DNA of 64,000 nt. It comes from Daucus carota subsp. sativus (taxonomy: Eukaryota; Streptophyta; Magnoliopsida; Apiales; Apiaceae). The position numbers were made by a program, and so were the translations under genes. Below the pieces are notes generated by a model, which saw only the letters and a program-made list of their open reading frames with translations, made no database searches and had not been told where the DNA came from. Each line of letters starts with the position of its first letter. The first letter of the stretch is position 1. The stretch is taken from the NCBI RefSeq assembly GCF_001625215.2, contig NC_030382.2:46465364-46529363 (forward strand), read 5' to 3'. Positions 14,099 through 43,824 of this stretch are shown one piece after another.

Positions 14099-14763
14099 TT
14101 AATTTTACCTGTAGTTATTCAATACAGAGTCCTAATATTTTGTGTAACATTTAATGGTTTGCACAGCTACTGGTTATCTACTTGTATTCTCAGTACTATG
14201 TTAGAACTTCTTTTCACAACTTATTTTAATTTCATTATACGTGAAAAGTAAAATACCTTTATTTAAAAAAAATCATCATATTTATTATGATTTTTATTGA
14301 TCTAAAACAACTCCATCAACTTATTTGATTTTTATTTTTTATTTACAAATTTCATTATCGTAAAAATATGTTATCATTATAATAAAAATTATATTCGTTC
14401 AGTTTAAAATTGTAATTTCAATATTCGCAATATTTATCTACAAGAAATAACATGTTAAATAATAATATATATTTTTTATTTTTCTAGATTTTAACTTGAA
14501 CTTTTCAATTTATGTTGTTTCGATTTGAAGATATTTATTTTTAAACAATAACATAATAAATAATAATATATACTATTATGTGATCTTAAATATTGGTTTA
14601 TCATATTATCTTAAAATATAATTTATAAATATTCCCTCTACTAATTTATTTTTTATTTCAATACTAAAGATATTTAAAATAATATATATATATATATATA
14701 TCTAAATTTTTCTTTATAATTTTTGTTAGTTCAATACCTAAAAATATTTATTTTTAAAATATA

Positions 14764-14795
<32 letters not shown>

Positions 14796-14800
14796 ATATA

Positions 14801-15034
14801 TATTATTAATTTAAAAGGTTCGTCTCACATAAAAATAAATATTTTTATGTAATATGATAAATTAATATTTTCGTAATAATGAAATATATTTGACTTGATT
14901 GTGTGTATTTGAGCATTAATAACATATGTTTTTTATTCACAAGTGCTTCATATTTTCATCATCACGAAAATATTAATTTATCATATTATCTAAAAAAATA
15001 TTATTGTGTGAGGCGAACCTTTTAAATTAATAAT
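14801..15034. mobile_element. Foldback / MITE-like palindrome
   Basis: Two arms of about 75-80 bp are inverted copies of each other. The left arm begins TATTATTAATTTAAAAGGTT followed by CGTCTCACA; the right arm ends TGTGAGGCGAACC then TTTTAAATTAATAATA. The arms share 'aatatgataaattaatattttcgt'-type sequence and enclose a spacer of about 75 bp. A target-site duplication cannot be fixed in such AT-rich flanks, so the superfamily is unknown. Confidence 0.65.
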
Positions 15035-17102
15035 ATAAATCATTTGTGTAATTTTCTAAATTTGCTAATATATATATTATATGTTTTGTGATCTGTTATG
15101 GTAAGTATATTGAAAAATAGATTTTGTCCTCTGTGTGTCCATGCGCACGTGCGAAAATTGTTGAATTTAGATTATTTTGATTGGTGTATATATAATCGGT
15201 CCACTATTATTAAAAAGTAGGAAGCAATCAAAATATCTAAACACAAAAAAAATTGCATTTGCATATGGTCATGACATACGACAGGAAAATCGTAAAAAAT
15301 ATTATTAATTTAAGGCAGATTTATTGGAATTAATTAACCAATTTTTATCTTAAAATAAATCATATATTAAAAAACATCTTTTGAATATTTCTTTTTATAT
15401 TGTTTTAAGAAAATAGGTTAAATATTATTCAATATTTGTTTAATAAAATTCTAACATATTATATTTATAATTTGATAATTACAAATAAAATTAATATTTT
15501 ATGTTAGTGCGTGGTATATAATGATAATTAGTTAATGATATATTATGAATATAAATGTAAATGGTTTAACGTTAATGCGCTGAGTCATCATACATAGGTA
15601 TGCATCTCGAACTTTGAGCCGGTATAAGAATTCAGCATTACATCTTGCGCACAGTCAAAGAAGCATTTATTAGAAGTTTATCCATTTAATGTATCAGAGG
15701 GCATTCATGTAATATACTTGTGTGCACAAAGCAAAAATGATTTGCATTTAGCAACACCCGAAAACAAATGGGTTGGGTTTCAATTTACAAAGCTATATTT
15801 CAGATTCTAAAACCCTCGCTTAAAACCCCACCAACTAGTCATGTAATGTACCCGGTTAGTGATGATTAACTTTCTTGAAAGCTTTGGGGGCTAAATTGTT
15901 AAAAAAGTAGAGTTGAGTGACCAGTTGTTTATTTACTGGCGTATGTTCCCTATTGGACCTTAATGGCCTGGACTGGATTTAAAGATGATAATTGTTTTGG
16001 GCTTAAACTGTTTAGTTAGATTGTCTTGGGTTGGGATTGGGTATTCGTGGATTGTCCTGTATGGCTCCTGATCTGTCCCTTTTTGCACCAAAGTGGGACA
16101 ATTGTTAATGGGTAATGTAGACACTGGACTGAGTCTGGAATATAATGGGCCTGTCCAGGTTGGATAAATGCATCTAACATGAGAATATTTTATGGACAAA
16201 TAAAATGTTCTATTATAATTAAGATTTTTGATAAAATCTCAGTAGTTTTTAATTTTAATATTTTTAACTAGCTTTAACTAATAAAAATAATATGATACAA
16301 GATGCTATTAGAAGTTTTTTATTAGATAACTTTTTCTTTCTAGCAAATATTTGTAAGAATTTCTCTGATTATCTTACACATATTTTATATGATAAATAAA
16401 GTTAATCAACCAAAATCGGATAATGTCTAACTCAACATGGATGAAGTTTTGTAATAAAGTTATGTAACAAAAGAACATTTTTGTGTTAACAAGTTCATTA
16501 TTGTCTATATAATTATTTGAATGATGTTACTAATATCTATCTATCTATCATACGAATTCATAAGGTAAAATAGATTAATAAAAAGTACTCCTATCTCCTA
16601 ACAATTTAATGATTTTAAAACAATCCTTACACGAATCCAGATTGCCAGCCGACGGAAAAATCCAAGCATCTCTTAGTGATCATTACTCTGTATTAGGAAC
16701 AGTGGTCAAACCAAACATGGTCTCAGCAGTCAGCAATGACGAAAGAAGTAACTAACGTGATCATTGGAACACCAACTTTGAATATGAACACACAGTTGCT
16801 TACGGCAATGGGATTTTCGTTTGTATGGTCCCATATTACACCACATGTTTACTGATTGTAACGGTATTATTATTTTGACTTGTTTTTTAAATTAATAATT
16901 ACTTAACAATTTATGTATAGTAATTTAAATAAATATTGAGATTATGTAAATAAAAATTATTTTATTATGCTATTAAATTGCTTACCTATCTAATATATTT
17001 TTCAAGCTTCTCGATATGCTTTTATTCTGAAATATTATTGAACAAACTATACGTAACGTTGACATTTTAAAAGATCATTATATGAAATAAAAATTAAATA
17101 TG

Positions 17103-17147
17103 TTGTAATTTCCAATAACGGATTGTAATTTCCAATAACGGATTGTA
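17103..17147. repeat. Perfect 20-bp tandem duplication
   Basis: The unit TTGTAATTTCCAATAACGGA occurs twice in a row (17103-17122 and 17123-17142), followed by the first five bases of a third copy. The surrounding DNA is non-coding. Confidence 0.9.
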
Positions 17148-17990
17148 TGTCACACTCGAATTTATTTTTGTATTATTCAAATTTTATTAGAACTTGAATA
17201 TTCGAAAATAAACCCAAATTACTTAATATTATAGCCACTCGAAAATAACTTATTGTGACCAAAAATTTATTAAAACATAATTATTAACTATAAAATCATA
17301 TTTCTTGTAATATACTGATATGTAATAATTTAATAAAAATAATGCGAAAAAAATTGTTTAAATAATATATAATTATACCATGAATACATGTAAATGTGCA
17401 CCGTATATATAATATATTATATACATGGGTAAAAATTAAAAAGTATGCATCTCGAACTCAATCCAAAATATAAATAATCTTAATTCTGATTTGTATTTTT
17501 GTTTACTCGATTTTGTATCACTTTTCAAATCGCGACAATTTTATCACTCTTGGATATATTATCATACAAAATTTTTTTCTAAACGTCAGTGTTAATCGCG
17601 ATTAATTCATTTTCTGTAACTCGTCAACCTGTAAATCTAATTAATATTGGACAATTTTAAAATTTTTTATAAGACAGAAAAAAATAGAACAACGAATGAT
17701 AACGGTTTGTCATTTCATCCTCAGTGTCTAGCTTTTCTACATAAATATTTAAATGATACTAAAATATCAAATAAGATTGACTCATTACTTATTCTTCATT
17801 TTAAATATCATTATTTATGATCTCTTTATCATATAAAAGGTGCTAGAAATAAAAATATATTAACAATTTCTAACAAAAGAATCTTAACAATTTTTTTTGA
17901 AGTTCATCATTATATTAATTTGAAAGTTATATAAAATATTATTATAATTCTAAATAAACACCGCCAAGTTTTTAATAAGATTCTAGTATA

Positions 17991-18227
17991 CTCCCTCCAT
18001 CCCAAATTAGATGGCCCCGTTGACTTTGGGCACACAGTTTAAGGTTCATTGACCGTATAGCTACATGACTTATTTTTAAAATTTTATTTTTGCAAATAAA
18101 TATTTAAATATGAAATTTTTATTTACAAAAGAAAAAATAAAAAAATAAATTTCGGAAGTAGATGGTCAATGCACCTAAAGTTACGTGCTCAAAGTCAACG
18201 GGTACATCTAATTTGGGATGGAGGTAG
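17991..18227. mobile_element. Stowaway-like MITE (Tc1/mariner)
   Basis: The 237-bp element has terminal inverted repeats CTCCCTCCATCCCAAATTAG (left) and CTACCTCCATCCCAAATTAG (right, read inward), flanked by TA dinucleotides (17989-17990 and 18228-18229). These are the defining Stowaway features. It lies about 370 bp upstream of the SUFE2 start and could contribute regulatory sequence; that is inference. Confidence 0.88.
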
Positions 18228-21038: not shown

Positions 21039-23930
21039 ACAACATTTCTAAGCATCTACCCTCCTAGCTAGAATGTTTGTTGACAGTTAAATAGTACCGA
21101 CTATATAAGGGGTGACAATATTGGACACCATCAGAGTACAACCTTTGAAAAATAGTTCATCATTATAACGAACACCATCCGAGTACGGTTTAAACTTATT
21201 TTAGCTAACCATTATCCCATATTATATTGGCTACCCCACTCGAGATTCTCTAAAAACATTAGGACTAGATTAATAGCCCCAAGGGAATGTGGTTTCCCCA
21301 CCTGATTATTATAATAATATTAGTGATACCAACACTGGTGAATGATTACCAAGCTAAACAGGATCTTCTTTACTTTTGCTAATTAACTGGATCTTCCTTG
21401 AATACAAGCAAATGGTAGTTTAATGTAAGGGGACCACATATACCCTTTCAACTAGTATATGTTTTGCAATTTATGGTACTTCTTGTCTTGGAAGAAGTCT
21501 GGATATATAAGGTAGATTACACCCAAAACTATATAACAGTAATGGCACATATGGTGTTGAATGTTTTGTCAGTTCATTCTGTAAGTGGTCCATTATTGCA
21601 GTTAAACTACACCCTTGCATAGGTTTGTGTGCATGATCTACCAATGCAAATGGTTCTTTATTCTGAGACCTTATCTTCATTCGGATTAAGTTCAATTGGT
21701 ATGTATGTTTTTCTTAAATCAGTCTTATGAAAGCTAATATTGGATGGAAGCAGTAGATGAAACTTAACTTTGTAGAAGCAGTCTTTTGATTCCTTCTGCA
21801 CAGTATCTAGAAAGCATATTCCAGAATTCCACTATGCTACAGGATTTAGAGGTTGCTTGCTTAGCATGACAGAGTATTAAAGATAATTGTACATTGACCA
21901 CATCCATAACTTTATTGCAGTTCTGGATTAGATTGTTGCACTTCTGTGGCCATTAACAGGCTTATCAGTTTAATTATGCCTCAGTTTCTTTATAACTATA
22001 AATGGATTCTGTTGTGTTTGGTTGGGGTGAATGATTCCGGAAGGAATGGAATGAAAAATGAACTATCTTATGGATGATTTTTAAGAAATTTCATTCCTTC
22101 CTCCATTCCATTCCCTACATCATATGCTAGATATCACCCCTTCCATTTGAGATGGAATGCTCCATTATCTCCCATCTTCAATTTCTTCTCAAATCTCATC
22201 ATAGCAATTTTGCACTCATTCAAATTTTTTCAAAACTTTCTTTCTATCTCTATTAGTTTCAAGTATTTTTTACTCATTTCATTCCATTCCATTTCATTCT
22301 CCCCAACCAAACACAACATAAGGCATGTCACAACCGTTTAACATTCCTGTAATTGATCTGACAAGCTTAGGAACTGCTATCGACGTTACAACGTCATTTA
22401 TCCATCCTGATACAAGGTGGCTTTAAAAACGTATTATCATACCCCTAATGCAATTTATATGGCTGAAATTCCAAAGGAGAACAAGCGGGTTGCTGATACC
22501 CTTGGTCCTTTTTTTTTCTTTTTGCTATTATCTTCTGGAAACTAATCTTAAAGACTGAATCATTATACTAATGTTTTATCAAAGTCTCAACTGTGTAAGG
22601 GCTCATAACTCAAAAGTGGGCTTCTAAGCCTGAGAACTCCAAATTTTTTTAATTCAAGTTGACGCTGGACAGAGTGTTCGTGATATACAGTATTGGTATG
22701 ACATCAATTATGGGAAGGGCAGGTGCAAATGCAAATATCAAACAAAAGCGATGTCAACTCTGGGCTCTGGCTTTGAAGGTACTTATCTTTTTATCCATGC
22801 TCATATTCTAGAATGGAAACAAGATTATATGCTTATATTCTAGAAATCTGAATATGGATTTTTTTTTTAAGTGATATTATCCATTTATTGATTTTGTTAA
22901 TTATTAGTGATTTCTAGCTATGATTCCATCGATTCTTACATTTCAATTAGGCTTAAATTTTCTTGATTCAATTTTTTTTTGGGATATGTGTTATGATTCA
23001 AAAACTTTATACATGTGGAGTAAGCAGGGTTTAGATTAATTTCAGTTAATGCTGGTTTTGTTGTTAGAAGTCTGGTGATCTGAAGAATCAGAAGGCTGGA
23101 GTTTATCAGAATTAGGACTCCGGCAATTGTCAGAAACAAGTTCAGATAACATTAAGATGAAGATTCCGCACAGTGACAGAGTATTTGAGGGCTGTCAGAG
23201 ATTTGGAATGCACTTGCAGGTTTACAGGAAATGGAAATGGATGTTTGTGAATGCCAGACTGTCTGCCTCATATCTATGCCAAGCAACAATCTATCTTCTC
23301 TACAGCATTCCCTCGGCGACATATCTGTATGCCATCAATCCGACGTTTAATCCTATACATGCATACAGAAATCAGGCAGTTATCTGATTCAGAAAAAATG
23401 TATTGTACTCGTACTATTTCCAAATTTGACGAACTTAAATTATCGTTATTTTTTCCGTAATCTTCATAAATTTGATTATTTTGATGATCCTGTTGTCATC
23501 CAAACTGGGAGAGGTGTTGTCATAAAGTTTGAATTAATAAAGTTTTAATTTTATCTAGAATGGAAATTTGAATATTTATTTAAATATAAAATAATAAAAT
23601 AATTTTAATTAATAATCAATGATATTTTTTTTTGACAATGTTAGCTTATATGCCTTACAAAATAATATCTGTTCTAATAATTATCGAGATGAGCCAGAGT
23701 ATCCGCCAAATTAACTAAATATTTGTGTCTTGGAGGCTGTAAATATAAATATAAATTAAAGCACGGTTATAAGTTCGTAACCGTCAAAAAAGGGAAAGAA
23801 CGAGGAAAGTCTGATGCATGACCGGATTTTACTTTAGGAAAGGATAGAGACGAGAAAAGAAAACCCCAGGCACAGCAACACAAGGAGCAGCCTATCCAGC
23901 AAAACGCAATAGTGAAACAGAGGGGACCCC
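21039..23930. other. Intergenic region before the HPt-like gene pair
   Basis: No gene is supported. The region contains the inverted-repeat element at 22010-22318. Short open stretches around 22340-22430 and 22680-22780 look locally exon-like (for example the reading VIDLTSLGTAIDVTTSFIHP), but I could not link them to a family or to each other. The last 150 bp resemble the 5' flank of the second HPt-like gene (see 31008-34427). Confidence 0.5.
22010..22318. mobile_element. Inverted-repeat MITE, superfamily unresolved
   Basis: The ends are TGTTGTGTTTGGTTGGGGTG on the left and, read inward on the right, TGTTGTGTTTGGTTGGGGAG. Both continue into 'gaatga..ggaatggaatgaaa'. The 309-bp element is non-coding. 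No clear target-site duplication was found, so I do not assign a superfamily. Confidence 0.7.
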
Positions 23931-26900
23931 ATGGAGACACTAACTCAGCTGCTAAAACAACATTACCAACTCTTTGGCTCTATGTACCTCGATGTCAGTA
24001 TCTTTAATCTTTTATTTTTTTTCACTTCACTTCAAGAAACTAAAACACTGATCTGAGTTCAATTCGACGCGCCTGTTTGTGATTGCACTTATTTATGATT
24101 TTGAATAATGATTGTGATTTTTGCTGTGAAAACAGGCGATCTTGGGTAATAACTTCATACAAATTCACAGCATTCGAGACGCAGAGAGTCCTCGAACTTT
24201 AGAAAAAATAGCTGACAATTTCTTTAAAAATTTGATGGAGGGGATCATAGATGTGGGCGATGCACTGTCCGCGTTCTTTCTAACTGACTCGATAATCTTT
24301 TGATTTTTGGATAAAATACATAATAGTTTTAATTTTGTTAAATGATCTGAATTTTACTTGTGATTTTTTTTGTTGAACAGACGTCAGGAGGAGATAAACT
24401 TTGGGAGGATTCTTGAAATTGTCTCCAACTTGAAGGACGCTGCCAATAGGTAAAAAGTAAAATTTTGTTCTTCTCGACTTAATCAGAACTTACGGTTCGA
24501 TGCTTTGACATAGTCTTAATTGATAATGATTCATATATATTGGTAATGTTTCGAATGTGCGACAGCCTGACGAGATATAATAGTGGTCCCATAAAAAGTA
24601 TGTTGGACAAAATTACTGTATATCTTTTGTTGAAATATATACTTGTAGCATATTTACTTTAATTCCTTTTGTGTAAGTGCAGAATAATTGTAAGCCAAAT
24701 TAATAATTTTTGAGGACATCAAAACCAAAACTGACCGCGATTATGTTGGTGCAAGAAACCAATTGACTAACCACTATATAACTGTGGGAGTGCTTGGTTT
24801 TCAGTTCCAACCTTATTCGAAGCTCCGTCAAACAGAATCAAAACACAGACTTAACATCATAACAGATGTATTTATCTCATGGATGACGCCTATGGAAGAA
24901 TAACTAGTGCTCCTACAGCATCTCGTTAAGACCAAAGTAACAAAAGCTAAATATTTAGTACTTCATGACATTTCAACAAATAAATTCAACCGTTGTGTAT
25001 TGACAACTGGGGAAACATGAAAGCCCATTTTACTCATTACCAAAGTCATGATTTCTCCATTGCCTCTCAACTTTCATGCAAACCACAACCAAAGCCCTAA
25101 CCGGAAGAATCTTACCGAGCAGATGAAGGTAAAAGGAAAGCATGACTTGATAGAGTGGCCGTGCAGTAGAAATTGTGTTGGAGCTCGGTTTTCGTTTTCT
25201 ATTAATCAGATTTTATGTTGTTACATTTGTTTGTTTGTTAATAGAGATGCCAGGGTAGTGGTTACTAGGTAAACAAGTATAATTTATTTAAGTATTAGAT
25301 TAATAATCTCAATCTTGGACCTGTTCATTCGGTCGGTCACTTGGACGGTGCTCCTGTGCAAGCATAAGCCCTAACCAAACCAACTTGGTTGAAATTTCTA
25401 ATTTAGGCAATCCAAAATTGACCTTAGCAAGTTAGCGAACTATTTTGACGAGTTTGATTAGATTTGTCGGTTCTTCTATGTAAGCGTTGTGTCAGCGGAG
25501 CTGCATGTTCTATTTTAGCATGTTCAGTTGACTATGGCTTATAAACACATGGGATAATTATAGGTTCATTTCATTAAAACAGCTAAATTTATACATCTAT
25601 CATAGTTGGATAAAATTTGTATATTTAGGAATATTAATTACGAGAGGAAAGAAATTGCGACATATATATGAATTCCTATCGTTAAAAGTTCAGGAAATTG
25701 AAGAAATTGTTAAGTAGGTTACTAGGTTAATGTAACAAGCAGTCTCGATTCTCAAGTCTATATATTCAGAATAATATGTGTGTGTCCTTATATGAAAAAA
25801 GCTACATTTTTTGTGTGTTAATTAGATTGCAAGTCTGTAACTGTTATGTACCGCTGACCACAACCACATATTTTATTTCACGTAACTTTTTGATGGTGTG
25901 GGCTGGATAAATTACTTGAGACAACAATAAATTCAAATTAGAAAATATGAAATTTTGATTGTAAGCTATCTATATTCGCAAAATAATTTGAATAAACAGA
26001 AAAACAATATCAAGTAGTGGTATCAACAATGAACAGGGTTTCTTACGGAGGATGTTGCATAGTTTTTTTCCTTTACAGTTTAGGACATTGGAGATACTTT
26101 AGAGCGGGAATTAATGGTTATAACTCAGGCCTCTTATATAGAAGTATTTTGAATTGGTTTTACCGCTTTCTTTGTAATCGTGGAGTCTTTTTATACTTGG
26201 TTTTGATGTGCACAATCATTTTATTGGGAGTTTATATGTTTGTAGTTTTTTATAAGTCATTTTGATGTTATGGCATTTTTATACATTTAACTGAATCACT
26301 GTTTAAGTTTTCGTGTCAGTGCTACTTAATTGTGTGTGTTTTATTGGTAAAAGCCTTTAAAGCATGTTGACCATAACAAGGATACATATAGCACAACGAT
26401 CATCTTGTTAATTTTTTATTTTCTAAAATCTGACTAATTTTTTCTGTTCTTGATTTGACAGCTTTGGTGCTCCTAGATTGGTACTGAGTTGTGAAGCGTT
26501 CAGAATCTGCTACAAAAATGATAATATTGAAGGGTCAGTATATCTTTTCACTTAAACCCATATCGATTTTTTCTGAATCGATATTTAGAACTCGCCTGTA
26601 CTTCAGATGAGTTTTGTAAGCTCACATGTAGAGTTTGCACAACAAAATTGCACAAGATTTTTTTGCTGCCCATGCGCACTAGTTGTACTTAATTCAGAGA
26701 CAAAGAGTCACAATGGGCTAGGTGGGGAACTTGGTTCCTCTAAGGTTTGATAATATCTATACAGTTAATCTTCAAGACTGTCAGTTTTCCAAATGGACAA
26801 GATAGTGATTCTAATGTCTACATCAGTGTTGTAAAAAGCGGGAATCGGACTTAGGTGAGGGCACCGTCCAGCGATTAATCGGATAATCGGAGATTAATCG

Positions 26901-28182
26901 GAGTGATTAATCGGATCATTAATCGTAATCAATTTAATATTATTTTTAAATTATATATATATATTTATAAAATTATATATAGTATAAATTTATAATTATA
27001 TAAAATCAAAAGAATAATGATTTTTTATAACCCAAAACATGCCTTTATATACATATACAAGCCTAGTCATCTCATATATTTGATTCAATCTGCTAAGGAA
27101 TATATATTGCAAATTTAAGTAATTAGAGTTTGGAAGTTAATATTAAAAGAGTGAAACGTAATAAAAACAAATTTAATTTATGTGTTTTGTCTTTCTGTGC
27201 CTTTTATTTTATTTAAATTTAAAATTTTAAAATTTTTTCACTTTTTTTAAAATTTTTTAAATTCACCGATTTTTGACCGATTTTTTCCGATTAATCCCGA
27301 CTTTTGACCGATTAATCCCGATTTTCAGAAAAAACGATTTTTTCACCGATTAACGCTTAATCGAGACGGTGGCCGACCGAACAGCGATTAATCGGCGATT
27401 AATCCCGATTAATCGCCGACTTTTCGAACACTGGTCTCCATGAATAAAATATAATTTATACACACTAAAGTTATAAATACATTGTTTCCCTAAATTATCT
27501 ATTAGTTTTTTTTGTTTTCATTAGTGATCTCAGTCTACTTAATTCATTATGAAGATGATAAATAAAGGTCTTTGGTGCAGATTCGTCCATTGCCAGAAGC
27601 ATCTAAAGAACGACTTCCTCTGCCTTAAAAAAACACTTAAGGCATTTTTCCAGGTTAGTACTCTTGGTATTTCCTTTTCAGGACAGAAAAACATTAGTAT
27701 TTTTATTCAAAATCTTTATCCTTTTCTTAGTTTAAGGTCAATTATGGTACTTGTATGCAGTACATCAATTTGAGTGAAATCTGTAATGTGACAACTTCTA
27801 GGATTCATATTCAATATCTCTATATTACAATGCCTTTAGGATATTACTAGTCACCTACTTAAGGTATCATGTAAATCTTTATTTCACAAGTTCAATTCCA
27901 CTTTTAGGGTTTATAGGTACGTCCAAATAAACTACCAAGTGTTACGTACTATAAACGCAAAATTCCATTATTAACAAGAATTCATTTACTAAATAATAAG
28001 TTTTCAGCATTGTAACGTTTCCGGTGTTGTCAGTGCTTGAATTTCTTTTAATCTCTTAGTTATTTTCCTTTCCTGCTCCTGTTTCTGAAAAACATCTATA
28101 TGCGCCATATATGCAGCTGGAGCATAAAATCCTAGCTGCTGGGGGAACAGTCCCAATCATCAAGTGTCCCGTCAAAAACTGA
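23931..28182 (+). CDS. Pseudo-histidine phosphotransfer (HPt/AHP-like) protein, copy A
   Basis: Six exons: 23931-23993, 24136-24266, 24381-24449, 26462-26533, 27581-27653, 28117-28182. All junctions are GT-AG with consistent phase and encode 157 residues. Exon number and boundaries match plant AHP genes, which relay phosphate from cytokinin receptor kinases to response regulators. Family landmarks: FGAPRLVLSCEAFRICYKND aligns with IGAQRVKNACVVFRSFCEQQ of AHP1, and the last exon LEHKILAAGGTVPI aligns with LEQQIVASGGMIPA. In exon 3, INFGRILEIVSNLKDAA aligns without gaps to VDFKKVDPHVHQLKGSS, so the phospho-accepting His is Ser80 and the conserved Gly after Lys83 is Asp. It should not carry phosphate. 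A role as an inhibitor like AHP6 is inference. Intron 4 holds a hAT-like element. Splicing is predicted, not observed. Confidence 0.82.
26824..27433. mobile_element. hAT-like non-autonomous element in intron 4 of HPt copy A
   Basis: The 610-bp element begins CAGTGTTGTAAAAAGCGGGA and, read inward from the right, CAGTGTTCGAAAAGTCGG. It is flanked by GTCTACAT (26816-26823) and GTCTCCAT (27434-27441), an 8-bp target duplication with one mismatch. Both subterminal regions are packed with copies of 'cgattaatcgg', as is usual for hAT transposase binding sites. The equivalent intron of copy B (33560-33811) lacks it, so it most likely arrived after the gene duplication. Confidence 0.87.
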
Positions 28183-28549
28183 AGGGAATGTTAAATCCTA
28201 GCTCATGGAGATTGAAGTCTAGCTGTCTCATAATGTCTCTGGATTTTAAAATTCTGAATTCCAGTCCTTGAATCTACTAGCCAGGAAAATCTGTTTATTT
28301 GGTTCTGTACTTCTAGAGTTCTGTTTTACTATTGTGCTAAACTTTGTTGTTTTCAAATCTAAAAGATTGATTCGACTTTTGAGGTAACTGTGTTATTGTG
28401 GTTTAAGTTACTATTAACTTTTAAAGATGACATATCAGCCTGTTATTTATTCATGCAAGTCACCACATTTTAGAGATGTTTTTTCCGGAGGTGCTATGAT
28501 CGTGGACACTATCAAGAATAGGCCGCTCACACACCACGATTACCACTAA

Positions 28550-28960
28550 AATCGTGGTTCTCCCTCGCCTCCCGACTTCCTTGCAAACCACAACCGAAGC
28601 CCTATTTGTAAGAATTTTACAGAGCAAATGAAAGTGATAGTGTCAGGAGCTGGATTTTGGTTCTTTGAATACCAGCCTTTATCACGTTGTACTTGTTTGT
28701 TCAAATTTGAGTTCAGTTCATTCTGTCCGTGTTCCCTGTGTAGGGATAAGCCATGAAGCTGATCAACTCAGATCGATCTTCTGAATCAGGCAATCCAAAA
28801 CCGAATCTAGCAAGTTACCAAACTATTTTGACCATTTAATTAGGTACCTTTATTCCACAAGAGAACTCCATGTTTGAGAAAACATTTAGTGAAGTTGTGT
28901 AAATAGCACTGAATTGCTACCAACATTAAATCTATGATTTATGAAATATTACTTGGAGGA
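28550..28960 (+). repeat. Third, exon-less copy of HPt intron-3 sequence
   Basis: Downstream of copy A, the stretch from 'cctcccgacttcc' to 'attccacaagagaactcc' resembles intron 3 of copies A (about 25055-25460) and B (about 32045-32450 and 33108-33260). Shared blocks include 'gcaaaccacaacc.aagccct', 'caggcaatccaaaa', 'tagcaagtta' and 'tttattccacaag'. It contains no recognisable exon. It interrupts a 3' flank that otherwise matches the 3' flank of copy B. It is either a relic of a further gene copy or a dispersed repeat that also sits in both introns. Confidence 0.55.
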
Positions 28961-29012
28961 ATAAAGGGAAACCATAGCTAATGACACAATTTACTCTTCT
29001 TTATTTTCATAA

Positions 29013-30237
29013 GGGAAAATAGATTGTTTTGCCACCCAACTTATTATTTGTTTAGAAACCTACCACTGAACTATAATTTTTTTCTTTTTTGTCACTAATG
29101 TTAGGTTCGGACTTTTTTTTGTCATTAACGTTAGGTTCGGATTTGATTATTAACACTATGTTATTTTTTTAGTATTATTAAAATATAGTGTTAGTCTGCA
29201 ATATAATGGCAATCTGATATGTGTCTATATCTTTATTTAGTGTCCTGGGTAGTTTACCTTGGAGGACGAGAGTTGGACACGCATTTTGAGACTCCAAAAA
29301 ATTTCAAAAATTATTTTATTTTATTTTTTCTGAATAAAATTTAATGTTTTTTTTTCCTTAAAAAAACGTTGGATTTTTTTTGTCACTAACGTTATGTTTT
29401 GATTTGATTATTAACAATATGTTATTTTTTTAGCATTATAAAAACATAGTGGTTGTCTGCAATATTATGATGATATGATATGTGTCCATAACATTATATA
29501 CAGTCATATATATGTCCCTTAACTAGTTTACATTGAAGTACGAGAGTTTAACAGACATTTTAAGAACCTAAAAAATTTAGTTTTATGAATTATTTTAAGA
29601 CTCCACAAATATATAGTATCACTTGACTTTATAGTTCTTTACCACTACTTGTCACGTATTTTAAGGTTCCCACTTTTTATAAATATAGTTTCATAAGTTA
29701 ATTTTGATATTTCCTTTCTGAGTAAAAAAAATCCGTACTCTCGTCTTCTAAGATACACTACCTAGGACACATATGGAGTACTACATATAAAGATATAGAC
29801 ACAGATCACTATTATATTGCAGACTATCGGAAAATAGATTTCCGAAAAATATCGTTTAGATGATCGGAAAATTTAAATAAAAGTCTGATTTTAATTAAAT
29901 ATAATAAAATTTCCCAAAATGCCCCTTCAAAGGTTAACGGTAACGGTAGAAGATAACGGAAAGGGTGCAAAGTGTCTACGGGTTAAAAGTAAGGGGCTGT
30001 ATAGTGTTTATTCCAAAACTATTAGGTGCAATGTGCAACATGCTGAAATCAAAGGGGCGCCAAATGCAATTAATTCTAAAAAGAATAACATAGTGTTAAT
30101 AATCAAATCCGAACCTAACGTTAGTGACAAAAAAAAAATCCGAACCTAACATTAGTGGCAAAAAAGAAAAAAATTATAGTTCAATGGTAGGTTTCTAAAC
30201 AAATAATAAGTTGGGTGGCAAAAAAATCTATTTTCCC
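29013..30237. mobile_element. MULE-like foldback element between the two HPt genes
   Basis: The 1,225-bp element begins GGGAAAATAGATTGTTTTGC and, read inward from the right, GGGAAAATAGATTTTTTTGC. Its TIRs are about 150 bp, and a perfect 9-bp target duplication, TTTTCATAA, flanks it (29004-29012 and 30238-30246). This fits Mutator-like elements. Inside, a segment around 29100-29290 is repeated around 29350-29580 and again in inverted form around 29730-29830, so the element is built from nested copies. No captured gene was recognised; the ORF at 29919-30149 runs through TIR-related sequence. Confidence 0.83.
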
Positions 30238-31007
30238 TTTTCATAATCAAGCACATACATTGTGAATGATTAGGTTCGAAACTTCAACACATGGGAGATG
30301 GGAGGGAGAGATAGAAACATCATTTTGGAAACGATACATAATTTTAATTTTAAGGAGTTGAAATTAAAAATGTAATTTATAAAAATAAATTCAGAATATT
30401 TTAATAAAAATAATTTTTATATATTGAGTTCAAGTAAAATATTATTCGTAGAGTAGCTATATGTCATGTTTAGATGTATGTTACTCCCCCAGATACGGAT
30501 ATATACGCAATTCCAAGGAATAATATATAAATTTACCTACTCTACGAATGTTGTTATTTTTTTATACGTAATTTTATATTTTTGATAATATAGTTGGAAA
30601 TTTCACAACAAAAGGAAACCATTCTCAAAAATAATAATTTCAATATTAGTATAAATGAATTTGATTTATATGTTGGGAAATTAAGTGACTTATTTATAAA
30701 AGAAAGAAAAAAAAAAGAGAAATGTTAAATCCAGAGCTAATTTTTAATTTTCAGAGCAAACAAAACTTAAAAAGACAAAACTGCCCTCATGCATATACAA
30801 TAGCAAAAGAGAAAAAACAATATGAAGGGATAATTTCGTCTTTTCAAAACTTTTCAGCTCTAACATTTCCCAAAAAAAAAGGAAGAGAATAGGACTGACA
30901 TTTGCTTTAAAAGGATAGATACGAGGATTCCCCACTGACAGCAACATACGGAGCTAAAATCTAGCGAAACTATCGAGGCACTCTCCCTTGTGAAGCAGAA
31001 GGACCCC

Positions 31008-34000
31008 ATGGAGACAGTGGAGGAATTGCTAAAACGCCATGCAGATCTTGTCAACTACATGTACCGCGAGGTCGGTGTTTTCGAGTCTTTCTACTTTTTT
31101 ACTTTACTTCAAGAAAGTTAAATCATGATCTGATTTTTAATCGATGCGGGTCTTTGTGATTGCACTTGATTTGGGTACCTTTCTGATTTGAATAATGATT
31201 TTTTTTTTAAATTTTTTTAATGTAAAAACAGGAAATCGTGGACAGTCAATTCATAACTGTTCTGAACATGCGGGCATTAGACGAGAATCTCGAGAATCCT
31301 GATTTTTTTGGAATGATGGTTGCCGTGTTCCGCGAAGCTTCGGATGCGAAATTAGAAACAGCGGCCTCCGAATTGTCCGTGTTCCTTTTTTTTTTTTTTT
31401 TAATTTTTTGATTTTGAACTGTATTAAATGATACGAATTTTACTTGTGATTGATGTTGTTCAACAGGCAGAAAGAGGACCCGAACTATGAGAGAATTGAT
31501 CGAATTATTGAGGACTTCCGGGAAACTTCCATTTGGTAAAACTCTATTTTTCCGGGGTTAATAAGAAGTTATATTTGATGCTTAAACATAATTTTTGATG
31601 ATAGTGTTTCAACATATTGGTAATGTTTCGATTTGCAACAGCCTGACGAGTGATTGGTGTTTAATACAAGGGTGGCAGTGAAAAGAATGTTAAACGAAAA
31701 TATGATATGTGTTTGATTGGAATATAGGTGTACTGTATCTACTGTAATAATTCTTCTTGTGTATGTGTAGTGCAGAAGAAGTAAGGAAAATTGATAACTT
31801 TTGAGGATGTCAAAACTGAAACTCACTGCGATTCTGTTGGTGCAAGAAACCGACTAATCACTAAATAACTGTCAGAATGCTCAGTTTTCAGTTCTAACCT
31901 CATTTTAAGCTCTGGAGAATCAAACACCGAAGCATAACTTTCTTGCAAATAAATTCAGTCGTCTACTGATGACTGCAAAATGTTGAAAACCTTGAGTTTT
32001 ATTTTTATTTCTTTTTACTCACCACCAAAATCATGCATGACTCTCCTTTGCTTTTCAACTTCCATTCAAGCCACAGCCAACTAAGAGAGGGATGGTGCTA
32101 CGGTGGATAAATCTTACCAAGCAAATGAAGGCAAAAGGATACCATAACTTGACGAAGTGGCTGTGTAAGAGATAGGAGAGTAAGAGAAGGATGGTGTTGG
32201 AGCATTATGACCAGCCTTTTACTTGTTTATTTGTTTGTTGAGAGAGAAAGAGAGAGGCTGGGATACTAGGTACCAGGTTAACAGGGGGAAAATAGTTAAG
32301 TATTAGGATAATAATATAAATCTTGGTCAGGCCACTTGGCCGGTGCTCCTGTGCAGGCATAAGCCCCGAACCAAAGATTTTCTCAACTACGTAATCCAAA
32401 ACTGAAGCTAGCAAGTTAGGAAAATATTTTGATTAGGTAGGTTTGTCGGTTCTTCAGGGTCGTATGTGGTGTGTTATTATGTTGGTTGGCTCACATTTAT
32501 GAAATAGTTACAGGATCGTTTTATTCAAACAGATAATATTAATATCTCTACTTTCAAATTCTTCTTCTTTTTTTCTTCTCTATTTTTAGTTGAATCAAAT
32601 TGGTCTGTTTTACACTATTAACTACCAGACATGCAGATCTTTTGTCGGCGAAACTAGATAATTTGCATGTGTCCATATATGAAGAGCGGTACATTTTGAT
32701 GGCGTGGAGTGTAAAAATGCAATTACGACAACAATAGTTAATTTAGAAAATGTACTATGTTCATTGAATGCTATCTGTATTTGCTATATATTACCTGAAA
32801 AGGTAAGAATATTAATCGAGGTAGAGGGATTAAATGGGTTTATGTTGATTAAATGCTATCTATATTCGCTAAATAATACCTGAAAAAGTAGGAATTTCCA
32901 CGTAGAGGGATCAACAGCGCTTTCTAAGCGGACATTGCATAGAGGTTTATTTTTACAGGTTTGGACACTGGAGATACTTCAGAGTTCAGATTGAGAATTA
33001 ATGATTTTGTATCATGCTCTCTCTATATACTAGTGTTTCAGATTTTCCTATTTATATACTCTTGGTCTCTATGTGCGATGTCTTTTTACTGGGAGTTCAT
33101 TTATGTGCGGTTTATTCCACAAGAAAAAACCGTGTTTGGAGAAGCATTAAGTAATATTGTATTAATAGCATTGAATATGGTTTATTCCACAAGAAAAGTC
33201 CGTGTTTTGAGAAGCATTCAGTAATATTGTTTTAATAGCTTCGAATGGTCACCAACAATATTGTTGGGATAATGACCTTGTTGTACATGTAAATATTCCT
33301 AGTAGCACTGTTTATTACTAGTTTCCATTTTCTTTGTAGCCAACATTGTACGTGTATTATTGGCAAAAGTCTTTGAGTATTTATATTGATTAGAACAATA
33401 ATACATACAGAAGATAGATCATCTTGTTTTTGTTTATTGATTATTTTCTAAAATTTTCGACTAATATTTTCTATTCTGGAATAACAGCATGGGTACTCAT
33501 GGTTTGGTCAGTACTTGCAACTCATTTAAAACCTGCTACGAGGCCAAAAATTTCGAAGGGTCGGTCTTTCTTTCTACTTACACCAATATTGAGCCTTTTT
33601 TTTTTTTATCAAATTGTGGAACTCACTTGTACTGCAGATAACTTCTTTAAGCTCACATGTGGAGTTAATATGACAAAATGTTTTGCTGCCATGCACATCA
33701 GTTGTGCAACATACAGTTTTCTTTTGCCTAAATCATTGATCAGTTTGATGTTCTTATTAGTAATTGCAGCCCACTTGAATTGTAGATGACATTTGAAGGT
33801 GTTTGGTGCAGGTGTGTGAGATGCTTTAAGCGTCTAGAAGACGAGTACTTATTAATCAAAAGTAGACTCGAGACACTTCTCCAGGTTAGTATACTCCGTC
33901 TTTCCATTCCTGCTAGGATATTAATGTTCTACCATTAGTAATTTAGCCGACATCTTTTTTCTATCCTTTTCAGCGTTTAAGATCAATTTTAGTAAACTTG

Positions 34001-34427
34001 GAATTTGTAATCTGACAAGTATTGTTCAGGTTGATTAGATTTATGGAGTATTTAGAATTTGAGTAGTACGTAATGCTTTTTGTTGTTGCCAGTCACAGTA
34101 TTGTGACAGAAGTCCTCAGGAGATTGCTGAAATCTTAATTTCATAAGCATTTTGATTCGACTTTAAATCTCTGTAGGATCCTCTAAATCATGAACGAAGC
34201 AGTAAATTACAACTTCATGATTTTATTATGAACCACTGTGCTTTACTGAATTATAGGTTTTCTGGACTGCAAGATATATCAGTTATTTTCCTTTTCTGCT
34301 TCTGTTTATGATAAAAGTTTGTCCATGGTACATGCAGCTGGAGCATCAGATTGATGCTGCTGGAGCAATAATCCCAGTCATCGAGCTTCCAACCAATAAA
34401 GTGAAGAGACCATTCAACCCGAAGTGA
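31008..34427 (+). CDS. Pseudo-histidine phosphotransfer (HPt/AHP-like) protein, copy B
   Basis: Six exons: 31008-31070, 31232-31374, 31467-31535, 33488-33559, 33812-33884, 34338-34427. All are GT-AG, in the same phases as copy A, and encode 169 residues. Exon 5 (CVRCFKRLEDEYLLIKSRLE) is close to AHP1 CHRCLQQVKQEYYLVKNRLE, and exon 6 starts LEHQIDAAGAIIPVIELP. In exon 3, NYERIDRIIEDFRETS aligns to DFKKVDPHVHQLKGSS, so the phospho-His position is Glu84 and the VHQLKG core is gone. The C-terminus extends to KVKRPFNPK, beyond copy A. In exon 1, 10 of 21 residues match copy A (METxxxLLKxHxxL...). Flanks and introns also align with copy A, which shows a tandem duplication. A phosphate-independent partner or competitor role is inference. 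Confidence 0.82.
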
Positions 34428-35374
34428 ATTCTAGAGTTCAAATCCTTGGATATCATAGCCAGGACATCTGGTTATTTGGTTGTGTACTTGTGGAGTTATG
34501 TTTTACTATTGTGCTAAAATTCGTTGTTCTGTAGCTAAATGTTTGATTCGACGTGGAGGTTACAACAAGGTTTTTATGGTCTTTAAACTATTTAAGTGCT
34601 GCGGTACCACATATCCGCATGTTATTATTCCTGCAGGTCACTACAATTTAGAGATGCTTTTCGTAGTTGATTTAGCTGGTTGCAATTTGCAAGCCAGAGC
34701 TATAAACATATATGTGGAGACTGTCTGTCAAATAAAGCAAATGGTGGCCTAACCTGCAGCTTTCTCGGTTTCATGTTTATGAAGCTGGATGAAAGTGACA
34801 CCGTAGCTAATTCCACAAACAAAATTATATTCTGCTTTAAAATGATGTTATTAAGAGCACGCGCACAACATCAAAACAAATTGCCTCATTTCCAGATAGT
34901 TGCACGCACACTAAGCACTAAAATTCATAAGTTTGGGTGATTTTGATTGGCTCCTTATAATGGTGGACTCCCCTTGCAAATTCACCGACCACACCAATTA
35001 AAATCCACCAAACTTATAAAATTTGGTGCTTAACAAATTGATTCAGTAGAGGGTCAGGCTGAAAAATTTAAACTCTCATACGAATCAAGATCTTGTGACC
35101 AAGTCATGGAAGAAATTATCTTCTAAGTTTGATGAGTTGTATTCGACAATCTTCTTCCTCCATTTTAATAGTACAATCATATTATATTCGTCTTTTAACA
35201 AAAAACAAAAAAAATCGAGAATCCTCAGTGCCAAACTCATCTGCAATCTAGAGCAGGATTCTCAGTTTCTTTTGTTAAAAACCAAGCAAATAGAGCAACA
35301 CCTCAAACAGTGGAGAGGATATATTTTAATCAGGTTTACTGTTGGATCAAAAATTAGACGAATCACAAAAATAT
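34428..35374. other. 3' flank of HPt copy B
   Basis: The first 400 bp or so match the 3' flank of copy A (for example 'ttactattgtgctaaa.tt.gttgtt' and 'atagctaat'). The remainder is AT-rich with no gene recognised. The ORFs at 34480-34940 are accidental readings of this duplicated flank. Confidence 0.55.
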
Positions 35375-38585: not shown

Positions 38586-40347
38586 TTACTAGCGCAAAGA
38601 ACAATAGAGTGTTTTTATGCAGATTTTTTTTAAATCTTGGCTGGGGTCATATATGAACTATCCCTACCCAACACAAGCAACTACAAGAGCACCGGATGAT
38701 AATCCCTTTTTGTCAATGCTTATATAGTAATTTGGTGTCCTTAGGTTTCATCTTCTTTTGGTTTATCAGATAAATCTTTTGAGTATTGGATGAAGTATTC
38801 GTATGCACTAGCAAAATAATTTACAAACTTTCCGTCCACCCTGACTTGGCCTCTTAAGTTTCATGTTCATTTAGTTTGCTACTAAGAGCTGTTGGTACTT
38901 AGATAGAAAGCTTTCAAGTTCACTACCAATATAGTTCATCGTTCTTGCATTCATTCATGATATATTTTTGGACATTGCAATTGAGATTTCATATTTATAC
39001 CAAGTAGTTCCTTCCAGCCTTGGGTGGAAGACTTTTTATTTTCACAATGTAAATCATCCACGTTTTCTTTCCGCTGCTTGATAATAATTTATGTGGATGA
39101 TTTCTGTTGTGAAATGCATTTTCCATCCATTGAGTAATGATATATGTCCTTCACTTGGCATAGCTGAGGTTTCATCTTCATATGATTTAGTGTTTTGTAT
39201 TTTCCAGTAATATTCTTTAGGCCTTCTTTTTTGAGATGCACGATTTTATTCATAGAACGCCTCTCCCAACAAGAAGAGACGAGCAGCAGTAGTACAAGTG
39301 TACAACTAAGAGCAACCTAACTTAGGAACAACCAACTGGACTAGATGCTACAATAATTATTGGAACAAGTCCGAAACATATAACTACAGACTTGCTCCTG
39401 ACTCCTGCCATGCTTCATTTGCTTCTTTCTTACTTTCTGCCACTGCAATTTTTGATTATTACTCCACTGCATTGCAATCGATGGAGTTGGGACTTTTTGC
39501 TCCCAAACCTTCAGATTAACCGGACAGTTATTAATTAAAACAATAATAAGAGGGTACTCGGTCGAGAAGTACTGATTGGTAGTTGCCACCAAACCGGTAT
39601 ATAATAGTTTCAAAAATAAAAACGAACGGGCATGTAATTATCTTTTTATCCACCTCCAGCACCAGAAAAAAGGGAATAGAAAATCTCTAAAGCCAAGTCA
39701 AATCCTGATAATTTTCCGTCGGTACGTCGCTAACAAAATCTTGATAGCCTAACTTAACGAAAAAGACAGTATTGGTCGCCTAACTTCGTTAACGATTTTA
39801 TCAGTAACTCCTTAATAATCAACATATTTTTGCTAGTTTTATACCGTAAAATGCATGTTGTATTTTTAATAACAGGCGGAAGGAGTATCAATTAAAATCT
39901 GAGAATATAAGAAACAGTCATTTTGTTAAAATGCTAAAGTCTATAAGCACAAAAACTTTAACTTAAGCATAATTTTACATTCGGATAACAATTATTAATT
40001 TAATATTTATCTTGGTATTTTCTCGAGCAGAGTTCAAAATTTTGAGAGATTTTATGAAAATAATTTTTCCACTTCAATAGTAAAAAGTTACAATTTCTAC
40101 ATATATTATGTCTAATCACTAATTGTTGTGAGATGAAATCGATTCAACGTCTCATATATGTTTCATGAATTTTTAAAAGAGAGAGATAAATTATAGTCGA
40201 TAATTGATAGAGATCAGTCGTTTCATCATAATTAGTTATTATTGATTTTTTGTTGGCAGAGCTTATACTGCACTCCCGAAAGGTTATCAGTAATCTGAAT
40301 ATGTTTATATGTAAATATATGATATTTATCTGATAATAAATAATAAA
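38586..40347. other. Intergenic region, no gene recognised
   Basis: AT-rich sequence. The minus strand around 39620-39230 has a 90-residue ORF (39341-39613) of no known family. It is followed by a GAATAAAAT motif and an A-rich stretch near 39230, which faintly resembles the 3' end of a retroposed transcript. I found no homology cue, repeat ends or coding motif to support that. Confidence 0.4.
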
Positions 40348-41862
40348 TCTATACTATACTATTAAAGCTGAAACATTAAAAGTTTGGTCGGTCGGTCGGT
40401 ACTTGGGCCAAAATACGGGCCTATCTATATAACCAATTATTCTGGTCCTATTTATATAAATAATTATTCTTTTTAATTTGGGTCAAAGTACGGGCCTATC
40501 TATATAACCAATTAATAATAATCCTTTTAAAACTGAAACATTAAAAGTTCGGTAGGTCAGTACTTGGGTCAAAATACGGGCCTATCTATATAACCAATTA
40601 TTCTTTTTAATTTGGGCCATAGTACGGGCCTATCTATATAACCAGATAATCCTTTTAATTGAAATATATTACTTTTTTATATTTTTGATTAAAAACTCAA
40701 TCTTCTAAAATAACATTGATAAACATGGTAATTACTTTTTTAACTAAAATATATTATCTTTTTATAAATTTTCCAACTAAAAAATTAATCTTTTACAATT
40801 AATACGGACATGGGCGACATATTTATACGTAAAAATGTGTGCCAAAAGTCTAAAAGTCAAATAATTAAAAATAGAAAGAGTATTATTATATTGGTCGGAC
40901 GGTCGGTACTTGGGCCGAAGTACGGGCCTATCTATCTATATAACCAATTATTCTTTTTAACTAAAATATATTATCTTTTATATATTTTTTAGATAAAAAA
41001 AACTCAATCTTCTAAAATAATATCAAGCAACATAGTAATTGTCTTTTTAATCAAAACGCTTTATCTTTTTTAGATTTTCTAACTAAAAAAACCGAGTTTT
41101 TACAATTAACACGGGCGCCATATATATAAAAATATAATATCATTAAATATAATTATTAATAAATAACATGTGATATAATTCAACCAAAATACATTAATAA
41201 CATTATTTTTAAATACTCTAATGATCTCATATTAAAAGAAATATTACAAATCTGTCATATACTATATATTATTACATTATTAAAGCCAAAAATAAAAATT
41301 CACTTGGTTGGTCAGTTAGTTGAGTTTGGTGAATCGTTTGGTATTCGACCCACGGAGCTCTTGAATTTATAACATGTTATAGTATATTTTTTATTATCAA
41401 TTAAACCAAAACATTAAATTTAGGTTAGTATGATGGGGAGGTATTTGGTTTCATGCGTATGTTTTATACCATATTACCAAAACATTAAATTTAGGTTAGT
41501 ATGATGGGGAGGTATTTGGTTTCATGCGTATGTTTTATACCATATTATTAATTATTAATAACGAAATATCAAAGGTTGATTGGTTAGTTTATATCTGAGT
41601 TTATAGGCCACCTTAAATTATAACATGTAAAAAAAAATATTTTAACATTCTCATTAAAATATATATGTTCGACCTAATTTTCAATTAGCCATTTGACGGA
41701 CTTAACTATGAAGAATTTATCCAACTGTTAAGTAAAAAATTTATTAAACCATGTTATTCTATCATAATTTTATTTTTACAATAAAATTAGGTAACTTTAA
41801 AATATATATAATAAAATAACAAATATGTTAACCGCCCGTGCATTGCACGGGTTATAAGCTAG
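40348..41862 (+). mobile_element. Non-autonomous Helitron
   Basis: The 1,515-bp element starts TCTATACTATACTATTAAAG. Near the 3' end it has the hairpin CCCGTGCATTGCACGGG, then TTATAAGCTAG. The flanks are A (40347) and T (41863), so it sits in an AT target without duplication. The 5' TC, 3' hairpin and terminal CTAG are Helitron hallmarks. Inside, a unit containing 'aatacgggcctatctatata' recurs at least five times between 40420 and 40940. A 71-bp unit is repeated exactly in tandem at 41405-41475 and 41476-41546. No Rep/helicase gene is present. Confidence 0.87.
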
Positions 41863-42126
41863 TATATTTTTAAAATTCATAAATGAGTATTGACATGCTC
41901 TCAAAATTTAGGGGATGACCCCTATCCATTTACAATCCGTTGTCGTGCTGTCTGGACAGTGAAGTTCGAACTTCCCAATTCCGAACTCGTGCACTTTCAT
42001 GAATTGATTTCATCTTTCATCGAATCTCCCAATCCACACGTCCGCAATGATAGATTGAGCCTCTAATTTATCAGGAATTTATGGTTGTTTATGTTTATCT
42101 CAAACTAAAAGTGGACACAGGAACTA

Positions 42127-42384
42127 CTCCCTCCGTCCCCTTTTACATGTCCATTATGCATTTCGAGGAGTCAAATTGACCAATTTTTGACTAAATATTA
42201 CAAATTATCTACTCATTATTTTTAAAATCTGAAAGTTGCGTATTAAAATACACTAAATGTACTTTCTATTGATATAATTTTTATTATTTTTCTCAATTAT
42301 CTGATACATGTAAAGTTCAGTCAAAATAAAATCAATTTGACTGGTCAAAAGTCAAAATGGACATGTAAAAAGGGACGGAGGGAG
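42127..42384. mobile_element. Stowaway-like MITE
   Basis: The 258-bp element has near-perfect terminal inverted repeats CTCCCTCCGTCCCCTTTTAC and (right, inward) CTCCCTCCGTCCCTTTTTAC, flanked by TA (42125-42126 and 42385-42386). It is non-coding. The highly similar ends suggest recent activity. Confidence 0.92.
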
Positions 42385-43105
42385 TATATTCTTATTTTTA
42401 ATTATGAACGGCCCAAGTTCAGACTTGTGCGTCCATATTTCACTAGACAAGTCAAGTCTATCAAATCACCCTTCACCTGCGTACTTTAGCTTCTAATTAA
42501 CCAACTTGTACTAATTTAGCTTCTAATTAACCAACTTGATACTAACTAATCTTTCCTCTCAAGTCGTGTAGAACTAGTTGTCTTGACTTAAGTTGGCAGA
42601 GTTAGGTGATTATTCGCTTAAGGTATAAAATATTTATTTATGTTATTAATAAATTATGAAATAGTCTCGTAATTAGAAAAATGACTTTAAGTTGAAAAAT
42701 AGTTAAAATCAAAAAAATTGTGATACAGAAAAAACTTATTTTACTCCAAAATAGAAAATTGTGACGTCGTTAGTTGTGTTTGTGAAAAAATTGTTTTTAA
42801 ATTTTTTATTTAAATGGAAAAATAAAAAATAATTTATATATTTCTTTCATATATATGTTAATATATGTATGAAAACAAAAATAACTGCCGATTTAAGATA
42901 TAGAATAACTTTCTCCTAACAAGGTATATTCACTCCACTACTTGGTTCTACTTTTAAAAGATTAAAAGTTATGTTAGTTATTAATTTTTTGTCAAAATCT
43001 TTGATCATGGTCTGCCAGATTAAATTGTTAAGGAGACCGGTGCCACTTTAATTTTACACAATTATTGCTAAACTTTGTCTTCAACGTATTGTTTAATTAT
43101 AATCA

Positions 43106-43286
43106 CTAGCCTTTAACCCGTGCGAAGCACGGACGGATATGTAGTTCCTAATTTATTATTTATTATTTATAATTTAAATTTTAACGTCATTTTATTAGTA
43201 TTTTAATATTAATAGATTGAATTTAATTAAATTATATTATTCAACTGAATATATTTCTCTCGATTACTTGAAAATTGACAAACCCT

Positions 43287-43329
<43 letters not shown>

Positions 43330-43823
43330 CATTTAATTCGAATTTAGTACATGTAGATTTAAAAATTAAAAAAATCAGAAAATTCATATCTTTTCCAAAC
43401 ATAGACGATCTTGTAATACATTTGAAAGATTCAGTAATCTAATCAATCGAATTTCAACATAATTCTGTAATCTTGATTTTTTTGATAAGAATTAGAAAGA
43501 GTTATGTAATGTGTGGTGTTTATATTGATATAACACGTTAAAGTTAAAAAAAGTTATATAAAACTTTTTGTTAAAAAAAGATATTCAAAATTATTATTTA
43601 TAATTTTATTTATAACATCATTATAATTTTTTAATGAAAATATTATATGATAAGGTATTGTTTGGAGTGTTTTTAGTATTTGAAACTGTTTAACAATGTA
43701 AGACTAATAGACTCCACATTTGTAGACTTGTAATACCAAAAGGAGAGTACCAAACCAAAAAATATAAATAAAACATAGGACTACAAATTATACCCATGTT
43801 GACTTATTATAGTATAGTATAGA
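43106..43823 (-). mobile_element. Second non-autonomous Helitron, same family, opposite strand
   Basis: Read on the minus strand, the 718-bp element starts TCTATACTATACTATAATAA and ends with the hairpin CCGTGCTTCGCACGG followed by GTTAAAGGCTAG. The flanks are A and T on that strand (43824 and 43105). Start, hairpin and CTAG end closely match the Helitron at 40348-41862, so both belong to one family. The interior is different, AT-rich and non-coding, with a (TA)n run at about 43291-43324. Confidence 0.83.
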
Positions 43824-43824
43824 T

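Follow-up and report, generated by a model that had tools for sequence, protein, structure and literature searches.

A tandem pair of strongly diverged pseudo-HPt genes in carrot, probably coding for working proteins with an altered job

Two genes of the plant HPt family, the phosphate carriers of cytokinin signalling, stand in tandem within the stretch of carrot DNA analysed here, a window of 64,000 nucleotides of Daucus carota subsp. sativus (C2:46465364-46529363; positions below are numbered within this window unless another contig is named). By calculation both genes, henceforth copy A and copy B, keep the gene structure of their family and an open reading frame, and both have lost the phospho-accepting histidine as well as the glycine at position H+4. 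They evolve fast, most of all in exons 2 and 3. We take them, from their sequences, to be pseudo-HPts, that is, HPt homologues without the phospho-histidine, and they are probably working proteins with an altered job rather than dead genes. Pseudo-HPts and lineage-specific clades of them are already known; what is new is this strongly diverged pair.

Membership in the HPt family emerges from several comparisons. Among plant HPts the best phmmer match of either protein is MtHPt1 (E values in Table 1). A search against the sequences of solved structures gave 7 matches for A and 10 for B. The same 7 HPts appear in both lists, six of them plant proteins by name or title, while the seventh, chain 4g78, we take to be Medicago MtHPt2; the remaining 3 matches of B are weak and unrelated (E at least 0.39). 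Profile-profile comparison to the HPt family reached E 7.1e-30. The Pfam Hpt scores, 20.4 bits for A and 16.0 bits for B, both lie under the 24.6 cut-off, which is in keeping with strong divergence. The fold appears to have been preserved, as the hydrophobic pattern is kept at 39/44 columns in A and at 39/44 in B. Foldseek, run on an AlphaFold model of A only (of low confidence, with pLDDT 52.2 and pTM 0.46), placed plant HPts at all of ranks 1-9, the best with E 4.2e-4.

The spliced models agree with the gene limits that the first-pass annotation of this DNA had given, and with the six-exon AHP structure with identical phases that it had described: exon start phases are 0,0,2,2,2,0 in A as in B, and there is no internal stop. 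Its description of the splice sites as clean holds for the borders, GT-AG in 5/5 introns of each copy, but not for the donor of exon 2, weak in both (GTCCGC in A, GTCCGT in B). The canonical carrot HPt gene on contig C8, DcHP3, has GTCAGT at the equivalent place, which supports the limit of this exon. In coding length A and B differ at two places only, by 12 nt within exon 2 and by 24 nt at the 3' end, in B. The layout of six exons with the same phases is common to A, B, DcHP3 and a further relative on contig C7, and five introns have also been reported for watermelon and cucumber HP genes.

Table 1. Coordinates of the two predicted pseudo-HPt genes, their exons and a related remnant
Feature	Position	Strand	Evidence or remark
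Copy A, predicted pseudo-HPt gene, 157 aa, six exons	23931..28182	+	splice model; phmmer E 5.6e-20 to MtHPt1
Copy A, exons	23931-23993, 24136-24266, 24381-24449, 26462-26533, 27581-27653, 28117-28182	+	spliced model
Copy A, exon 2, docking helix	24136..24266	+	66/131 nt identical to B
Copy A, exon 3, once the phosphosite helix; Ser80 replaces His, Asp84 replaces the H+4 Gly	24381..24449	+	
Copy B, predicted pseudo-HPt gene, 169 aa, six exons	31008..34427	+	splice model; phmmer E 4.1e-24 to MtHPt1
Copy B, exons	31008-31070, 31232-31374, 31467-31535, 33488-33559, 33812-33884, 34338-34427	+	spliced model
Copy B, exon 2, longer than in A and C8 by an in-frame insertion of 12 nt	31232..31374	+	alignment
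Copy B, exon 3; Glu84 replaces His, Glu88 replaces the H+4 Gly	31467..31535	+	
Intron-3-type DNA between A and B, remnant of another copy	28545..28930	+	similarity

In HMMER alignments to solved plant HPts the phospho-histidine falls on Ser80 of A and Glu84 of B, exactly as first annotated, and no histidine is placed at the site. The alignment of A to AHP1 is gapless, and the gaps of B lie about 40 residues upstream of the phosphosite. Around these residues the XHQXKGSSXS motif is altered in both copies, again as had been noticed for the VHQLKGSS core; the histidine that marks an authentic, phospho-accepting HPt is thus missing, and the H+4 glycine is replaced by Asp84 in A and by Glu88 in B. 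A different exon 3, carrying a histidine, would change this picture. It was sought in the sequence and no such exon was found: the HQ.KG motif is absent from every frame of 23000-35000 (its sole match in the window is at 39660), looser histidine patterns gave 5 matches in the same interval, none resembling an HPt phosphosite, and tblastn of MtHPt1 over the window met no phosphosite exon elsewhere at E <= 20. An overlooked exon 3 is therefore unlikely.

Having lost their active site, both genes have nevertheless kept their frame. Neutral decay would be expected to have left about 8.6 frameshifting indels over the two lineages and at least 5.7 premature stops (5.7 at K 0.3), an approximate estimate that combines the indels of introns 1-3 with A/B substitution and a simulation starting from today's sequences. 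None was observed of either kind (P of none 1.8e-4 and at most 0.002, respectively), and with frames open against this expectation A and B look selected. A broken or neutrally decaying frame, the mark of a pseudogene, was found in neither, yet the ratio of nonsynonymous to synonymous rates (omega) is near 1. Between A and B it is 1.05 in a pairwise fit, where 0.5 and 2 are rejected (twice the log-likelihood difference, 2dlnL, 7.8 and 5.5) and 0.7 and 1.5 are not; four simpler estimators gave 0.77 to 1.41. On a tree of four genes, omega is 0.74 in the A/B clade as against 0.31 for C8 and C7 (p=0.010). A free-branch codon model was discarded, A having been pushed to the bound (dS 0.03, omega 15), and splitting omega between core and surface gave no significant difference (2dlnL 2.03).

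The two proteins are only 32% identical (51/157), whereas four canonical HPts are 48-73% identical among themselves, and this divergence is unevenly spread along the genes. Exons 1-3 (144/263 nt identical) are less alike than the 5' flank with introns 1-2 (246/329; p=3.9e-7), and the excess persists after stratification by base composition (Mantel-Haenszel odds ratio 2.3-2.4, p 1.1e-6 or 3.2e-6). In exon 2 only 8/44 residues are identical, between introns that match at 105/142 (intron 1) and 69/92 (intron 2) nucleotides, and differences are more frequent at its second codon positions (0.614) than at its third (0.477). The contrast is milder for the whole coding sequence (274/471, versus 1725/2633 for the introns together; p=0.0024); exons 4-6, with 131/208 nt identical, match no worse than introns 3-5 pooled. 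The fastest divergence is that of exons 2-3, which code for the docking helix and the phosphosite helix. Their omega differs from that of the remaining exons (p=0.005), a split chosen after the data had been seen; it is 2.06 when fitted alone and 1.50 with a shared dS. The excess over 1 is not significant when dS is left free (2dlnL 2.7 alone, 1.96 with shared dS). Moreover, synonymous sites seem faster than introns: calibration puts the true K near 0.30 for introns 1-2 and near 0.42 for intron 3, and a dS of 0.30 is rejected (2dlnL 11.4), 0.42 being borderline (3.9). For both reasons we report positive selection in A and B as suggested, not proven.

How far could such proteins still meet the partners of an HPt? 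The residues of AHP1 that contact ARR1 and AHK5 have been described (PMC11903765), 8/11 of the ARR1 contacts being given there as identical among AHP1-5. Of 13 pooled contacts, scored by residue identity only, 5 are kept in A and 4 in B – Asp38 of B would be lost as well in a six-sequence alignment – while DcHP3 keeps 11 and the C7 protein 6. At invariant interface positions, the histidine counted, A keeps 3/9 and B 1/9, as compared with 18/39 and 22/39 elsewhere (pooled p=0.035). The isoelectric points are also far apart (7.7 for A, 4.9 for B). In yeast Ypd1, charged residues at H+4 are reported nearly to abolish phospho-acceptance and to lower binding only modestly (PMC6341664). With the histidine lost and H+4 acidic, the relay would be doubly blocked in A and B, while some binding could persist.

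This leads us to a mechanism, favoured tentatively, in which A and B are coding pseudo-HPts that would bind without transferring phosphate. A canonical gene resembling DcHP3 would have been copied, and the copies then duplicated in tandem. Their products would keep the HPt helical bundle but, lacking the histidine and having an acidic residue at H+4, could not carry a phosphoryl group in the usual manner. The former receiver-docking face would have been altered differently in the near-neutral A and the acidic B, leaving each with fewer or different partners among the receivers of hybrid kinases, the response regulators and the other HPts. Passing no phosphate on, they would act as selective dampeners or scaffolds, not as broad AHP6-like competitors. 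We infer from the sequences that the genes are expressed, which partners they bind and in which direction they act. Several observations tell against this mechanism. Both genes have a weak exon-2 donor. In the A/B clade the fit does not reject an omega of 1 (2dlnL 2.1), and 0.74 is compatible with relaxed constraint. The modest effect of H+4 substitutions on the binding of Ypd1 leaves room for partners to be bound more broadly than this mechanism supposes. Finally, once the histidine is set aside, loss at the interface is not significantly above that at other conserved positions (pooled p=0.097; A alone 0.72, B alone 0.048): the docking face appears much altered, but not clearly beyond the rest of the conserved positions, and least so in A. 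This last result led us to lower our estimate of selective binding and to raise that of its nearest rival.

In that rival explanation A and B are inhibitors of the AHP6 type, which compete with canonical HPts for the receivers of receptors and response regulators and so lower cytokinin output. AHP6 is known to repress in this way (PMC5975490, PMC12785465); A and B, too, have lost the histidine and kept the fold, and both the Ypd1 data and the lack of a significant interface-specific loss speak in its favour. Most AHP1 receiver contacts have changed, however, far more than in the canonical carrot protein, and A and B are strongly unlike each other in exon 2. Competition of this sort is possible, if less likely than the first-pass annotation, which had brought in AHP6, assumed; the idea leaves this analysis weakened, and we hold it to be unlikely. 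It is unlikely, too, that A and B are simply dying, as relaxed duplicates that have lost their function and whose frames are open by chance. An omega near 1 by all the estimates given above, the missing histidine, the weak exon-2 donors, the decayed fragment between the two genes, and exons 4-6 about as alike as introns 3-5 would all be expected of such genes; the absence of any frameshift or stop in two lineages would not, nor would simple relaxation make exons 1-3 less alike than the noncoding DNA that flanks them.

That excess speaks for yet another view, in which A and B have been recruited to a role outside the phosphorelay, perhaps that of a decoy or of an adaptor to a partner that itself keeps changing, and are subject to diversifying (positive) selection. 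The preponderance of second-position differences in exon 2, the omega of exons 2-3, a divergence of exons 1-3 beyond that of adjacent introns even after base-composition correction, and the difference in charge between A and B all point in this direction. Against it, omega above 1 lacks significance with dS free, and the pace of synonymous sites indicates that the excess may owe something to mutation or to constraint on the introns. We find this view quite improbable. More improbable still would be its extension to a family of scaffolds, made in carrot from cytokinin phosphotransfer proteins and detached from the relay, with diversifying selection on the former docking helix and phosphosite helix as in an arms race of decoy and target, each copy facing a different changing partner.

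The other HPt relatives of carrot help to place the pair. The genome searched comprises 441 Mb in 11 contigs, and the list obtained with protein B as query is a lower bound, in which DcHP1a, DcHP1b and genes like AHP4 or AHP6 do not figure: 6 of its 10 matches fall on B itself, the other 4 lie elsewhere, and copy A is missing among them, so that the search is not sensitive. A Pfam Hpt search of the genome returned nothing at E 0.001, single exons being probably too short for it. The C8 match is a six-exon canonical HPt gene that retains His80 and GSSSS. Both primers published for DcHP3 (PMC4517795) match it with zero mismatches, the reverse one across the exon 4/5 junction, which identifies it as DcHP3. 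No site for any of the six DcHP primers was seen in A or B at up to 4 mismatches, and the expression study for which they were made thus has no bearing on our pair. A near-copy of DcHP3 at C2:34539300-34549200 (C2:34.54 Mb) has a canonical exon 3 and a TAA stop in exon 4, and the C4 match (C4:51065140 region, 4944-5039 of 9.9 kb) is a single exon-5-like piece with no other HPt exon recognised. The C7 gene (C7:2395880 region, minus strand) is intact, codes for 152 aa and begins its first intron with GC; with Leu80 at the histidine position and Glu84 at H+4, it is a further pseudo-HPt. Exon 3 is where it differs most from C8 (8/23 residues identical, versus 93/129 elsewhere; p=0.0013). DcHP3 and the C7 gene share with A and B the lengths of exons 1, 3, 4 and 5, besides the phases; DcHP3 differs by its kept active site, and C7 by being far closer to DcHP3 (66% identity, as against 38% for B and 30% for A). 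Outside carrot, a scan of prokaryote contigs with B gave 85 pattern matches but no relative, and tblastn of B against plasmids gave no match.

The history of the copies can be read in two ways. The protein tree, which like the four-gene codon tree contains no AHP6 sequence, joins C7 with A and B at support 85 (branch lengths 1.17 for A, 0.71 for B, 0.03 for C8). Introns 1-2 tie A and B to C8 instead: they are 62-67% identical to those of C8 (42-51% when shuffled), while those of C7, at 49-54%, are near the shuffled level, and blastn of the 5' region is continuous over exons and introns between A or B and C8, yielding only exon-sized pieces between C7 and C8. As to the order in which C7 split off, dS (C8-A 1.15, C8-C7 0.76 in the two-ratio fit) and the protein tree thus seem to point the opposite way from the introns, and one loss of the histidine would fit as well as two. 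The proposal of a separate, diverged lineage of pseudo-HPts consequently stands in part: both genes are strongly diverged and apparently kept open, with the intact C7 pseudo-HPt as a companion, but the grouping with C7 has support 85 only and is not backed by introns 1-2.

Pseudo-HPts are reported to have arisen at least 2 times (PMC5975490). AHP6, or APHP1, resembles A and B as a plant HPt protein without the phospho-histidine; it has Asn at the site (PMC6518804), which an orthologue would be expected to share, where A has Ser and B has Glu, and it differs from them by their acidic H+4, their largely changed receiver contacts and their tandem arrangement. Other pseudo-HPts without histidine are rice OsPHP1-3, cucumber CsPHP1 and Zizania ZlHP3/5/6 (the latter two reported with Gln), tomato SlPHP1 (Tyr) and petunia PaPHP1 (Ile). 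Those of rice, cucumber and Zizania, and SlPHP1, are described as closer to AHP4; A and B share intron-1 similarity with DcHP3, and they are far more diverged. Ipomoea IbHP7-11 (PMC9878860) likewise form a lineage-specific clade, of pseudo-HPs without Arabidopsis counterpart, although, by its description, HP tandem duplicates are not reported there. Loss of both active site and surrounding motif is also described for TM-HPts (18/94, PMC12785465), which have predicted transmembrane domains, whereas A and B match soluble HPts over nearly their full length (no dedicated transmembrane search was made). In the literature searched, supplements excluded, we met no report of Ser or Glu at the site, or of a tandem pair of pseudo-HPts.

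The DNA around the genes deserves a few words. The remnant between A and B (Table 1), in which tblastn found no exon match, indicates that the array once contained more DNA of HPt-gene type. Next to it, an element of about 1.25 kb (28999-30251) is bounded by 122-nt terminal inverted repeats that are 93% complementary. Intron 4 measures 1047 nt in A (26533-27581) and 252 in B, the extra DNA of A, with its repeated ATTAATCGG-like motifs, being perhaps a small transposon. Farther away, two very similar short reading frames on the minus strand (49238-49549 and 51232-51507) are apparently a local duplication, and two AT-rich blocks, 14001-18000 and 40001-44000, have a GC content of 23-26%, where the remaining 2-kb steps range over 31-40%. 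The neighbouring genes in the window include SufE, GDSL and GT17, a neighbourhood that presumably resembles a region of Arabidopsis chromosome 1.

Pseudo-HPts are usually taken as brakes in the style of AHP6. Here are two that lack the histidine, the H+4 glycine and most of the known receiver contacts, with their frames still open, and that offer a test of whether dead signalling carriers gain other jobs. The pair further suggests that a census of pseudo-HPts based on the histidine alone may pool proteins of differing behaviour.

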